DNA of 64,000 nt, taken from positions 1,240,001 through 1,304,000 of the forward strand of contig NZ_SDPW01000001.1 in NCBI RefSeq assembly GCF_004135645.1, read 5' to 3'. Below are positions 14,757 through 38,950 of the stretch, piece by piece. The first letter of the stretch is position 1. Each line of letters opens with the position of its first letter. The DNA comes from Senegalimassilia faecalis. Its GTDB lineage: Bacteria > Actinomycetota > Coriobacteriia > Coriobacteriales > Eggerthellaceae. Under the pieces are notes generated by a model. That model did no database searches and had not been told where the DNA came from. It saw only the letters and a program-made list of their open reading frames with translations. Made by a program: the position numbers and the translations under genes.

Positions 14757-14981
14757 TTGGGCAAGAATCGGGGCTTTCTGTAGCTTGGGCGCAAAACTTT
14801 GCGCGGGGTGGCAAGAATCGAGGGTTCCTGTATCCCCTTCGGTCCTCAAAGGCTTCGATTTGGCAAGAATTGGGGATGCCTGTATCTCGGGAGGGGGCGA
14901 GAAGCTGCAGGAATGGCAGATTCTTGCCAACGGAAGCCGCTATTCGAATTCTAGCTACAGAAAGCCCCGATTCTTGCCATC
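14757..14981. repeat. second 50-bp-pitch array: three direct and two inverted units
   Basis: The same unit as at 9702 recurs (TGGCAAGAATC, variable core, TTCTGTAGC). The GCAAG landmarks fall at 14761, 14811 and 14863 in direct orientation. The reverse-complement landmarks CTTGC fall at 14924 and 14974. The outermost units (14757 and 14953-14981) match each other almost perfectly as a long inverted repeat. The array again occupies the gap between a plus-strand gene and the 3' end of a LuxR membrane regulator. Confidence 0.8.
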
Positions 14982-27471: not shown

Positions 27472-27573
27472 CATCTGGCAAGGGGGACAGGTCGTTTGTC
27501 GCATGGAGGCGGGCTTTCCGTTAAGGGGGCGAGCCTTGCCGTGTGGCAACCGCCCTGCCCCCCTTGCCAGATG
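27472..27573. repeat. REPIN-like imperfect palindrome of 102 bp
   Basis: Perfect 15-bp ends CATCTGGCAAGGGGG and CCCCCTTGCCAGATG face each other, and similarity continues inward (ACAGGTCGTTTGTC against GCAGGGCGGTTGCC when inverted). The left arm contains GGGGACAGGTCGTTTGTC, related to the REP-like repeat at 3514-3545. Two inverted REPs with a short centre is the REPIN arrangement. No coding capacity. Confidence 0.65.
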
Positions 27574-28140: not shown

Positions 28141-28728
28141 ATGTCGAACAATGTTGCAGCCCAGAAGCGTACGGTGGCCGCCTCCACGAAGAAGGAGGGC
28201 CTGTCCGTACAAGATCTGATTTTGGTGGCCGTGCTCATTGCCGCCGGCGCCGTGCTCAAGCTTACCGTTTCCAGCTTCCTTAGCTTTGCGGGCATGAAGC
28301 CCAACTTCATGATTGCCATGTATTGCCTGGCCATCATCCTTACGCGTCCGAAAGTGTTCCAGTCCGTCATCATCGGCTTGCTGGTCGGCCTGGTCAGCCA
28401 GCTGCCCATGTTGAACGCCACGCCGCTGGTGAACATCGCCTCCGAGATGCTGGGTGCTTTGGTGTGCGGCCTTTTGGTCACCGCGTTCGTGAAGGTTGCC
28501 GCCGACAACAAGGCGTTTCAGAACGTTGCCGCCCCTGCCATCATCACCTTCCTGTCCACCGTTGTTTCCGGTTACACGTTTGCCCTGATCGTGGGTGTGG
28601 CCGTGGCGCATCTGTCCCCGATTGCCGTGTTCGGCGTGTACGCCGTCATGGTGTTCGGCACCGCAACCATGAACGCTGTGCTGGCCGCCATCCTCGCCCC
28701 CGTCCTGCGTGCGGTCCTGAAGCGCTAG
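28141..28728 (+). CDS. TrpP-like tryptophan-specific S component of an ECF importer
   Basis: The 195-residue membrane protein has five to six helices after a short cytoplasmic tail. The segment FAGMKPNFMIAMYCLAIIL resembles the TrpP/YhaG family of tryptophan transporters. The start at 28141 has GAAAGGAATGAGGATC before it; the longer frame upstream runs through the riboswitch. The T-box before it and ATPase and T genes after it make it the substrate-binding subunit of a dedicated importer. Tryptophan is inferred from the family resemblance and from the T-box features together. Confidence 0.82.
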   Translation: MSNNVAAQKRTVAASTKKEGLSVQDLILVAVLIAAGAVLKLTVSSFLSFAGMKPNFMIAMYCLAIILTRPKVFQSVIIGLLVGLVSQLPMLNATPLVNIASEMLGALVCGLLVTAFVKVAADNKAFQNVAAPAIITFLSTVVSGYTFALIVGVAVAHLSPIAVFGVYAVMVFGTATMNAVLAAILAPVLRAVLKR

Positions 28729-28763
28729 TAGGGTTCCGTTTTGCCTACGGCAAAACGAAAACG

Positions 28764-28948
28764 CTCGACGCTGCGGCCGCTTCTGGCACCCCATCTTGCC
28801 CTTCAGCTTCACGGGCATGGCCGAAAGGCCAATGCCCAGCTGAGCTGGGCGCGCCCGCTCGGGCGCATAGATGGTTTGTGAACAAGCCACTGGCTTGTTC
28901 GCTCAGGGCAATCTTGGGCACCAGAAGCGCCCTCGCTGACTCTTCGCC
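28764..28948 (+). repeat. dispersed structured element, copy 1
   Basis: The ends CTCGACGCTGCGG and CCTCGCTGACTCTTCGC, and the core CAGCTTCACGGGCATGGCC, are shared with 37859-37988. The core hairpin is GGGCATGGCC-GAAA-GGCCAATGCCC. An outer stem CGCTTCTGG/CCAGAAGCG and an inner stem TTGCCCT/AGGGCAA close it. Two more hairpins (GCGCCCG/CGGGCGC and GAACAAGCCA/GGCTTGTTC) are found only in this copy. It lies between the S component and the ATPase genes of the ECF operon. Confidence 0.7.
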
Positions 28949-29004
28949 ACCTGCGTTATTTGCCAGCTTTCCACTTGCTTGCCCGCTTACCTGAAGGGGT
29001 TTCC

Positions 29005-29862
29005 ATGATCGAGATTTCGCAATTGTCGTTTCGCTATCGGGAGGGGGCCGAGCCCATCCTGCACGGCATCGACCTGGTCATTCCCGATGGCGCGTTCGTC
29101 GGCATCACCGGCGCGGCGGGCAGCGGCAAGTCCACACTCACCTACGCGTTCAACGGCATCATCCCGCATTGCTACCCGGGTGATTTCTACGGCAGCGTGC
29201 TTATCGACGGCCTTGACACGTGCGAGGCGTCGCTTACCGACATCAGCCGCTTGGTGGGCAGCGTGTGCCAGGACATCGATTCGCAGATGGTGTCGTCGGT
29301 GGTGGAGGACGAGGTGCTGTACGGCCTCGAGAACTTCGGCGTGCCGAAGGACGAGGTGGAGGCGCGCGTGGCCGAGGCGCTTGACGCCATGGGAATCGCT
29401 GACCTGCGGCATCGCGGCATCGCCGAGCTTTCAGGCGGGCAGAAGCAGAAGGTGGCGGTTGCGTCGGTCATCGCGCTGAAGCCGCGCGTGCTGGTGCTCG
29501 ACGAACCTACGGCCGAGCTTGACCCCGCGTCGTCGCTGGCCGTGTTCGAGTTGCTGGCACGCTACGCTCGCGAAAACGACACGACGGTCATCGTGGTGGA
29601 ACAGAAGATCGCGCTGCTGTCGGATTTCGCGGATATGCTGCTGATCGTCGACGACGGCAAAATCCGCTTCCAGGGCACGCCGGCCGAGGTGCTCGAGCAT
29701 TCCGACGAGCTGCTGGAGATTGGCGTGAACTGCCCGCGTTCCACCAGCTTGGTGAATCGCCTGCGCGCCGGCGGCTTGGTGAACGCGCCGGCGGCGCGCA
29801 ACGTCGACGAGGCGGTTGCGGTGTGCAAGCGCGTTTTGAGCGGGGAAGGGGCCGTCGCATGA
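29005..29862 (+). CDS. ECF importer ATPase 1
   Basis: This 285-residue ABC ATPase has Walker A GAAGSGKST, Q-loop VCQDIDSQM, signature LSGGQKQKVAVAS, Walker B VLVLDEPTAELD and the H-loop region VIVVEQKIA. The usual switch His is not obvious (VEQK where many have VTH), as in some EcfA proteins. It energises the importer together with the next gene, with which it overlaps by 4 nt (ATGA). The start at 29005 follows GAAGGGG. The C-terminal 60 residues form the EcfA-type extension. Confidence 0.9.
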   Translation: MIEISQLSFRYREGAEPILHGIDLVIPDGAFVGITGAAGSGKSTLTYAFNGIIPHCYPGDFYGSVLIDGLDTCEASLTDISRLVGSVCQDIDSQMVSSVVEDEVLYGLENFGVPKDEVEARVAEALDAMGIADLRHRGIAELSGGQKQKVAVASVIALKPRVLVLDEPTAELDPASSLAVFELLARYARENDTTVIVVEQKIALLSDFADMLLIVDDGKIRFQGTPAEVLEHSDELLEIGVNCPRSTSLVNRLRAGGLVNAPAARNVDEAVAVCKRVLSGEGAVA

Positions 29863-37267: not shown

Positions 37268-37825
37268 ATGATCGACGAGATCATGCTGGAAACCGAGGAG
37301 AAGATGCAGCGCGCCCTGGGCGGCCTGCACAACGCGTTCGGCACCGTGCGCACGGGCCGCGCGAACGCCATGATCCTCGACCGCATCAAAGTTGACTACT
37401 ACGGCGTGCCCACTCCCATCAACCAGATGGCCGGCGTGAAAACGCCCGACGCGCATCTGCTGGTCATCGAGCCGTGGGACAAGGGCGTTCTGGGTGCCAT
37501 CGAGCACGCCATCCTGGAAAGCGACCTGGGTGTCACGCCGAACAACGATGGCTCGGTCATCCGTCTGCCGTTCCCGGCGCTGACGGAGGATCGTCGTCGT
37601 GAACTGGTGAAACAGTGCAAGGAATACGCCGAGGAAGCGCGCGTGGCCGTGCGCAACGCTCGCCGTGACGGCAACAGCCACGTGGCGAAGTGCGTCAAGG
37701 AAGACAACCTTCCCGAAGACGAGCAGCGCCGCGCCGAGGCTGAGATCCAAAAGCTCACCGACAAGTACGTTGCCGAAGTGGATGCTGCTTTCAAAAAGAA
37801 GGAAGCAGAAGTAATGGAGATCTAG
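37268..37825 (+). CDS. frr: ribosome recycling factor
   Basis: The 185-residue factor splits post-termination ribosomes together with EF-G. Typical features are VRTGRANAMILDRIKVDYYG, IRLPFPALTEDRRRELVKQ and the C-terminal helices ending KKEAEVMEI. The ATG is preceded by AAGGAAAGGAACCACA. It follows pyrH after 48 nt. Confidence 0.98.
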   Translation: MIDEIMLETEEKMQRALGGLHNAFGTVRTGRANAMILDRIKVDYYGVPTPINQMAGVKTPDAHLLVIEPWDKGVLGAIEHAILESDLGVTPNNDGSVIRLPFPALTEDRRRELVKQCKEYAEEARVAVRNARRDGNSHVAKCVKEDNLPEDEQRRAEAEIQKLTDKYVAEVDAAFKKKEAEVMEI

Positions 37826-37858
37826 GTGGTTTCGCCGGCCTGCCGGCCGGCGAATTTA

Positions 37859-37988
37859 CTCGACGCTGCGGGGCACTCTCGCACCCCGCCTTCGTCCTCA
37901 GCTTCACGGGCATGGCCCAAAGGCCTATGCCCGCTTGCTTCGAACGAATTCGGGGCACGAGAGCGCCCCTCGCTGACTCTTCGCTGCC
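37859..37988 (+). repeat. dispersed structured element, copy 2
   Basis: It shares both ends and the core of 28764-28948. The core hairpin is GGGCATGGCC-CAAA-GGCCTATGCCC. The outer stem is GGGGC-CTCTCG against CGAGAG-GCCCC, and the inner stem CCCCG..TTCGT against ACGAA..CGGGG. These stems differ in sequence from copy 1 but still pair. The element fills most of the frr-uppS gap. Another hairpin (GCCAACCTGC/GCAGGTTGGC, 38114-38142) follows before uppS. Confidence 0.7.
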
Positions 37989-38167
37989 TATGGCGTTTTT
38001 CGATTCGTTCGTGGGGCTTTCGGTGGTTGCTGGGGTTGGAGGGGTTTGGCTTTTGCGTTTGCGTCGAGGGTTTCCGTTTCATTTTGCAAGGCTTTCTTGC
38101 TGCTTTTTTGTTTGCCAACCTGCGGGGGTCCTGCAGGTTGGCTTTCCGGTATATATGAGGTTCGCTT

Positions 38168-38950
38168 ATGAATAAGCCGCTTGATTACATTTTCCCGAAT
38201 CCGCCCGAGGGGCTTAACCTGGGGGCGCTTGATTTGGACAACATCCCGCAGCACGTGGCCGTCATCATGGACGGAAACGGGCGTTGGGCGAAAAAGCGCG
38301 CCATGAACCGCCTGAAGGGTCACAAGGCCGGTATCGAAGCGGTTCGCGAAACCATTCGCTGCGCTTCTGACCTGGGCGTTCGCTACCTTACCATCTACTC
38401 GTTCTCCACGGAGAACTGGAAGCGCCCGCAGGATGAGGTTGTGGGGCTTATGGACCTGTTCGCCAAAACCATGCTGGCCGAGGTCGATGGGCTGCACGAG
38501 GAAAACGTGCGCGTGCGAACCATCGGTGACCTGTCGGCGCTGCCGGCCGAAACGCGCGAGGCGTTCGAGGAAGCGTGGCAGAAGACGCGCAACAACACGG
38601 GCATGACGCTGGTGGTGGCCGTGAACTACGGCTCGCGCCAGGAAATCCTCAATGCGGCCGAGGCGTGCGTGCGCCGTGCATTGGCGCGTGCCGCGGAAGG
38701 CGAGGACCCTACGGTTGCCTTGACCGAGGCCGATTTTGCGCGCGGCCTGTACACGGCCGACATTCCCGATCCCGAGGTGGTCATCCGCACGTCGGGCGAG
38801 CTGCGTTTGTCGAACTTCTTGCTGTGGCAGGTGGCGTATTCCGAGTTTGTGATCACCGATACGCTGTGGCCTGATTTCGACCGCTATGAGTTTTTGCGCT
38901 GCCTGCTTGCCTACCAGGGCCGCGACCGTCGCTTCGGGGCGGTGAAATAG
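38168..38950 (+). CDS. uppS: undecaprenyl diphosphate synthase
   Basis: This cis-prenyltransferase (260 residues) makes the C55 lipid carrier for cell-wall synthesis. The catalytic Asp and phosphate loop are in VIMDGNGRWAKKRAM. SFSTENWKRP and the C-terminal RTSGELRLSNFLLWQVAYSE are signatures. GAGGTTCGCTT precedes the ATG, and TATATA at 38150 may be a -10 box. cdsA begins directly after its stop codon. Confidence 0.97.
   Translation: MNKPLDYIFPNPPEGLNLGALDLDNIPQHVAVIMDGNGRWAKKRAMNRLKGHKAGIEAVRETIRCASDLGVRYLTIYSFSTENWKRPQDEVVGLMDLFAKTMLAEVDGLHEENVRVRTIGDLSALPAETREAFEEAWQKTRNNTGMTLVVAVNYGSRQEILNAAEACVRRALARAAEGEDPTVALTEADFARGLYTADIPDPEVVIRTSGELRLSNFLLWQVAYSEFVITDTLWPDFDRYEFLRCLLAYQGRDRRFGAVK

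Follow-up and report, generated by a model that had tools for sequence, protein, structure and literature searches.

Two structured stretches in the analysed window, 64,000 nucleotides of the Senegalimassilia faecalis genome, belong to what appears to be a Coriobacteriia-wide and previously undescribed family of dispersed hairpin repeats. Its members share a structure, a strand bias and a placement: a short and a long hairpin follow each other, as a rule directly behind a stop codon, and the long one pairs better on the bottom (antisense) strand than on the sense strand. The explanation that we put at a probability of roughly one half is a non-autonomous, hairpin-forming repeat family of the REP/MITE type, copied behind stop codons, whose folded bottom strand is acted on as single-stranded DNA. 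A search of the open-licence literature returned no description of such repeats or RNA motifs in Coriobacteria. In line with the sequence-only reading of this DNA, which had made novelty depend on the lack of a match to a known family, neither window copy nor any of eight further element loci is covered by a match to an Rfam 15 family, those known from Coriobacteria included, at the gathering score. The only Rfam match at those eight loci is an SRP RNA lying away from the element, and permissive Rfam searches with both window copies gave matches far below threshold only.

The unit, as read around the copies in the same genome, is ~165 nt long in total and consists of a hairpin of ~26 nt (hairpin A), a core of 119–121 nt and a tail ending near ACCTGCG. 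The core is a gap-free long hairpin of ~120 nt whose base motifs, CGACGCTGCGG and CCCTCGCTGAC, hardly vary, and it occurs in two apical subtypes, I (GGCC-NAAA-GGCC) and II (GTAC-CGAA-GTAC). The tail consensus (...ACCTGCG) is found in the copies of this genome as well as in other genera. Hairpin A lies directly upstream of the core, precedes nearly every copy and is part of the element, which the sequence-only reading had overlooked. Its CGCCGGCC type stands at 15 genomic places (matches to its own reverse palindrome left out), at 14 of which it is followed by the core and at one (L035) by a short remnant. The two window copies and their gene neighbours are arranged as follows.

28144–28728, plus strand: gene of a TrpP-like (ECF-type S component) transporter protein, upstream of copy 1 (Pfam PF17099, E 6.5e-10)
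28734–28760, minus strand: hairpin A of copy 1, starting 5 nt past the stop codon
28764–28837, minus strand: first part of the core of copy 1, with CTCGACGCTGCGG, the left arm and the subtype I apical hairpin (alignment, covariation, minus-strand fold)
28838–28904 (approximate limits), no strand assigned: repeat B within the core of copy 1, three further palindromes absent from the 120-nt copies
28905–28941, minus strand: second part of the core of copy 1, with the right arm and the base motif CCCTCGCTGACT (alignment)
28942–28955 (right end approximate), no strand assigned: tail of copy 1, CTTCGCCACCTGCG (tail consensus)
29005–29862, plus strand: ABC transporter ATPase gene of the same ECF-type operon, downstream of copy 1 (Pfam PF00005)
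37268–37825, plus strand: frr, ribosome recycling factor, upstream of copy 2 (Pfam PF01765, E 1.6e-66)
37831–37854, minus strand: hairpin A of copy 2, TTCGCCGGCC-TGCC-GGCCGGCGAA (sequence)
37859–37978, minus strand: core of copy 2, uninterrupted, 120 nt, subtype I (alignment, covariance model, shuffles)
37979–37993 (right end approximate), no strand assigned: tail of copy 2, diverged, CTTCGCTGCCTATGG (sequence)
38168–38950, plus strand: uppS, undecaprenyl diphosphate synthase, downstream of copy 2 (Pfam PF01255, E 7.6e-85)

Both copies lie where they had first been placed (28764–28941 and 37859–37978, plus-strand numbering). The apical hairpin GGGCATGGCC-GAAA/CAAA-GGCC.ATGCCC reads as claimed in the two of them, and so do the near-invariant flanks CTCGACGCTGCGG ... 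CCCTCGCTGACT and both pairs of outer stems. The gene upstream of copy 1 ends with a TAG at 28726–28728, its open frame running from 27883 with an approximate start, and the PF00005 match downstream is to a frame from 28960 in which the ATG at 29005 was picked by eye. Hairpin A of copy 1 has a 12-bp stem with one C.A mismatch on the plus strand and a TAC loop, which is GTA on the minus strand; that of copy 2 likewise starts 5 nt past the stop codon (the frr TAG at 37823–37825) and has the minus-strand loop GGCA.

The extra hairpins that had been noted in copy 1 are indeed present, but they are those of a separate repeat, B, which interrupts the core, and not the element's own. Modules related to B stand alone at two loci (L015, L018), lie inside other copies (L002–L004 and one G113 copy) and have left remains in the congener G002, where they adjoin a run of N (L393). 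Repeat B (L015, L018, window 28838–28904) represents a second family of dispersed palindromes, with three hairpins around GCGCCCGCTCGGGCGC and GAACA..TGTTC. Another palindrome, GGGACAAAGGGAC.GTCCCTTTGTCCC, recurs within ~100 nt downstream of the element (L002, L009, L011, L064, L065, L067, L068) and also elsewhere in the genome. The window further holds a perfect 26-nt inverted repeat with arms 167 nt apart (14760–14978; GGCAAGAATCGGGGCTTTCTGTAGCT) and, upstream of the TrpP-like gene, another inverted repeat (27472–27573) whose 35-nt arms are 83% complementary.

The claim that both sides of a stem change without loss of pairing, originally drawn from two copies, was confirmed by covariation with arm swaps and shuffles, and chance does not account for it. 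Among 12 gap-free subtype I copies, 20 of the 39 predicted pairs have both partners changed in one copy or more; the paired cells amount to 96.6% (83.2% in shuffles) and the doubly changed cells to 61 (20.6 in shuffles), and none of 500 shuffles reaches the observed value of either. A gap-free alignment of 68 subtype II copies with a mean identity of 60% yields minus-strand pairs that are 82.1% Watson–Crick, 12.2% G-U and 1.6% A-C. Swapping arms between these copies lowers the Watson–Crick share to 51.5% (55.7% in the highest of 500 shuffles), and double changes are found in 27 of the 32 pairs. Covariation of this strength supports the selection on structure that had been proposed from compensatory change.

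The fold under selection is, however, favoured on the minus strand, opposite to the plus strand on which it had first been drawn. Minus-strand G-U pairs outnumber A-C mismatches by 7.6 to 1, and the apparent C.A mismatches of the plus strand are conserved U.G pairs on the minus strand. With RNA parameters, the minus strand folds better in 104 of 108 cores (mean -78.7 vs -62.8 kcal/mol), and with DNA parameters in 105 of the 108; G-U pairs over these cores number 444 on the minus strand and 161 on the plus strand. A sense-strand RNA motif as the main reading was rejected on the ground of the better minus-strand pairing. A coding constraint on the core was likewise set aside, as no plus frame stays open across all copies. 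Over 123 copies, hairpin A contains few wobbles and mostly has a minus-strand loop of GNNA or GNA, and the apical loops of the core on the minus strand are often UUCG. Notable stability is a property of GNNA and GNA loops in DNA and of UUCG loops in RNA, so that the two hairpins disagree on the type of nucleic acid while both indicate the minus strand.

The placement of the element is equally characteristic. Of the 26 copies in this genome, 25 have a stop codon on the plus strand whose end falls in the interval from 6 nt ahead of hairpin A's first paired base to 1 nt past it; the remaining copy (L075) lies in frame within a gene. Nearly all of these copies lie between genes, and simple ORF calls put the upstream gene in sense in 25 of 25 copies checked; the gene that follows runs the same way in 21 of these and is convergent in 3. 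The stop codons at these copies match the usage of the genome (TGA is rare), and copies in other genera commonly have TGA, so that it is the stop codon as such that the element adjoins; a TAR-like DNA target motif was rejected on these grounds. In other Coriobacteriia, about 40 of the 99 listed copies adjoin a stop codon under a strict automatic rule, and a nearest-stop rule holds for 64 of 106 anchored copies (those of this genome included), both rules undercounting because the automatic anchoring often chose the wrong start.

Exceptions to the placement include copies just behind a tRNA (L095, L223), one behind a terminator T-run (L224) and several that are read in frame (L075, L114, L131, L163, L204, L221). 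The copy at L224 (near 230–420) starts right after the T-run, downstream of an apparent T-box leader (GGTGGCACCGC). In the gene of a TauE-like membrane protein, in this genome and in Ellagibacter, the element sits in frame between two protein halves (L075, L098, L131), an arrangement that resembles two genes fused through the element. As for intrinsic terminators, no T-run follows hairpin A or the core on either strand of the window copies, and separate terminators stand after some other copies in the genome (L005, L073).

Used as a query against the own genome, copy 1 returned 29 matching pieces. A covariance model built from the 12 gap-free copies, with the own copies found by search, gives ~28 full-length copies there and some weaker places, many loci, being palindromes, giving a second and weaker match on the opposite strand. 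In 84,980 species genomes, a pattern scan yielded at least 120 stretches. Among the matches listed from species genomes and viral contigs, 99 distinct ones pass the outer-stem test and 27 fail it. Nearly all passing matches among those listed come from Coriobacteriia, and a few from other groups pass by chance; the genera are Adlercreutzia, Gordonibacter, Eggerthella, Paraeggerthella, Slackia, Ellagibacter and Enteroscipio, and further ones among those listed lie in a Collinsella MAG and in Atopobiaceae MAGs. A viral origin was rejected, as all five viral-contig matches fail the outer-stem test. The covariance model has matches in 28 of 60 relatives, the weaker of which may be other palindromes; those of ~45–70 bits in distant genomes were read in part, and one of those read (L096) is not a copy.

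The element appears to be mobile, or to have been so once, and to have undergone both copying and loss, as judged from 98%-identical copies at unrelated loci, filled and empty sites, nested copies and one 11-bp duplication. The congener G002 carries two copies at unrelated loci which are 98% identical from TTGTTCCG to TTTTAC, and single Gordonibacter and Adlercreutzia genomes have cores 88–98% identical behind different genes. Since similar cores often come with different hairpins A, hairpin A and core behave as modules. Many sites of the own genome are empty or hold remnants in the congeners G001 and G002: L008, L010 and L013 are examples of sites that are filled here and empty in one of the two, the G002 counterpart of L008 being a gap of ~10 nt. 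At L006, the filled site is flanked by two copies of TATCATGACTA (the 11-bp duplication) and the G001 counterpart is an overlapping stop/start; over 129 copies, target-site duplications show no clear excess. L006 and L007, which lie near 1.784 Mb and 2.740 Mb, do not differ in the element or in the flanks read, suggesting a larger duplicated segment. Partial copies followed by complete ones occur (L113, L117, L126, L196, frr in G087), as do copies from which the whole stem is deleted. Sister species may carry different subtypes at the same site (I at L016 vs II at L349; II at L068 and L354 vs I at L360), and the upstream protein ends at such switched sites are 87–98% identical.

Of the two readings first offered, a new RNA motif or a hairpin-based mobile element, the latter fits better in view of the near-identical copies, the empty sites and the nested copies. 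The former is not supported in its plus-strand version, as covariation favours the minus strand, but may still hold for a minus-strand RNA. The frr site is filled in this genome, in G002 and in several other genera, decayed or deleted in others and empty in still others; its being filled across several genera suggests retention for function and not pure selfishness.

Searches for a mobilising partner covered Y1 transposases, reverse transcriptases and autonomous versions of the element. For Y1 transposases, the own genome has no match, and the element does not flank any of the Y1 loci retrieved from relatives. Reverse transcriptases have no match in most element-bearing relatives, and the one in the own genome looks diversity-generating. 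Its gene (L332, near 2.556 Mb) neighbours that of a C-type-lectin-like variable protein, which is the arrangement of diversity-generating retroelements. Neither kind of gene separates the genomes with the element from those lacking it, and 1.45 Mb of fetched loci showed no longer, autonomous form in which the base motifs enclose a gene.

On the preferred reading of a REP/MITE-like repeat, an enzyme acting in trans would recognise the folded bottom strand as single-stranded DNA, and new copies of the element would arise at sites that directly follow stop codons. The need for a folded bottom strand would in turn produce the compensatory changes. After insertion, hairpin A would lie in the mRNA within the footprint of a ribosome at the stop codon, so that the copies probably influence how translation of the upstream gene terminates, or the end of its mRNA, in the manner of E. 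coli REPs near stops. Structure, strand bias and placement are observed; a single-stranded DNA stage, an enzyme working in trans and an influence on expression are inferred. The UUCG (RNA-type) apical loops and the 12% of G-U pairs in the core, a share as in RNA helices, speak against a DNA element. The anchoring to stop codons is explained by no known transposase. A bolder proposal, rather improbable in our estimate, is that insertion senses translation stops or transcript ends through a folded bottom-strand nucleic acid, and that the element is then kept for long at junctions such as frr-uppS as a control element, its sequence turning over while shape and place stay constant.

The main rival, which we consider unlikely but with a real chance of being correct, is a bottom-strand non-coding RNA, namely an antisense RNA with a long helix that acts on the 3' end of the upstream gene or binds a protein. 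The minus-strand preference with its 12.2% G-U against 1.6% A-C, the conserved tandem U.G/G.U pairs and the UUCG-type apical loops are what such an RNA would display. Against it, no conserved promoter-like sequence is found past the tail (information is at background ~20 nt beyond the core), no U-run follows hairpin A on the minus strand, 21 of 25 copies lie between co-directional genes, and hairpin A has almost no wobbles. The position 1–6 nt after a stop codon, the upstream gene always in sense and the long retention at frr in several genera would also suit a cis-acting structure in the sense mRNA between operon genes, which controls mRNA ends or translation termination and is not itself mobile. 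Such a structure cannot explain the better pairing on the antisense strand, nor does it fit the nearly identical copies that occupy unrelated loci or the sites that are empty in congeners, and we regard it as improbable.

Two further explanations invoke other modes of movement. A SINE-like retroelement, in which the bottom-strand RNA is copied by a reverse transcriptase in trans, would agree with several partial copies that retain hairpin A and lose the far side; given that some partial copies are internal deletions retaining both ends, that most element-bearing relatives are without a reverse-transcriptase match and that the enzyme of the own genome looks diversity-generating, it is very unlikely. 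Slightest of all is the chance of an attC-like recombination site, that is, a folded bottom strand directly behind a gene that is used by a tyrosine recombinase. The length of ~120 nt, the position directly behind the stop codon and the bottom-strand fold resemble such a site, but the invariant boxes are CGACGCTGCGG and CCCTCGCTGAC and not RYYYAAC/GTTRRRY in alignments read by eye, and the copies are scattered among housekeeping genes in conserved order instead of forming cassette arrays.

The known systems that come closest include the REP sequences of E. coli and Pseudomonas with their RAYT transposases. E. coli REPs at most 15 nt from a stop codon have been reported to stall ribosomes, and ~11% of predicted REPs are that close (PMC12306157); REPs of the CGTC type occur without a dedicated transposase (PMC3733652). 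Like REPs, which are thought to be mobilised as single-stranded DNA, the element is a dispersed extragenic palindrome with many copies (~28 here). Unlike REPs, which measure 20–40 nt, its unit is ~165 nt long with two hairpins, and no GTAG/CGTC tag stands directly at the stem foot, a minus-strand CGTC lying in the base motif ~6–7 nt from hairpin A. While ~11% of E. coli REPs lie within 15 nt of a stop codon, nearly all own copies of the element lie within 6 nt, and, in contrast to REP/RAYT systems, the own genome has no RAYT and none was found flanked by the element.

ERIC elements are enterobacterial, intergenic, long imperfect palindromes, a subset of which carries an internal insert of ~70 nt. 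The likeness, which is by description, extends to a similar length, the intergenic position, the long palindrome and the insert-bearing subset; ERIC copies, however, share their sequence, whereas the stems here vary with compensation, and the element further differs in lying behind stop codons and in having a separate hairpin A. The attC sites of integrons have a folded bottom strand of ~120 nt directly behind a stop codon, with RYYYAAC/GTTRRRY boxes; unlike them, the element shows no such boxes in the alignments and occupies scattered housekeeping loci without cassette arrays. Rickettsia palindromic elements are palindromic repeats that can be read in frame within a protein, as a few copies are here, although this is the exception in a family placed behind stop codons. 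Bacterial repeats usually share their sequence; this family shares a shape, a strand and a position relative to stop codons, and the turnover of its stems extends even to copies that occupy one and the same site in sister species. How the element finds gene ends, and whether the folded antisense strand is the moving form, are testable questions. With copies at operon junctions of core genes (frr-uppS, transporter operons), the family also bears on gene expression in gut Eggerthellaceae.
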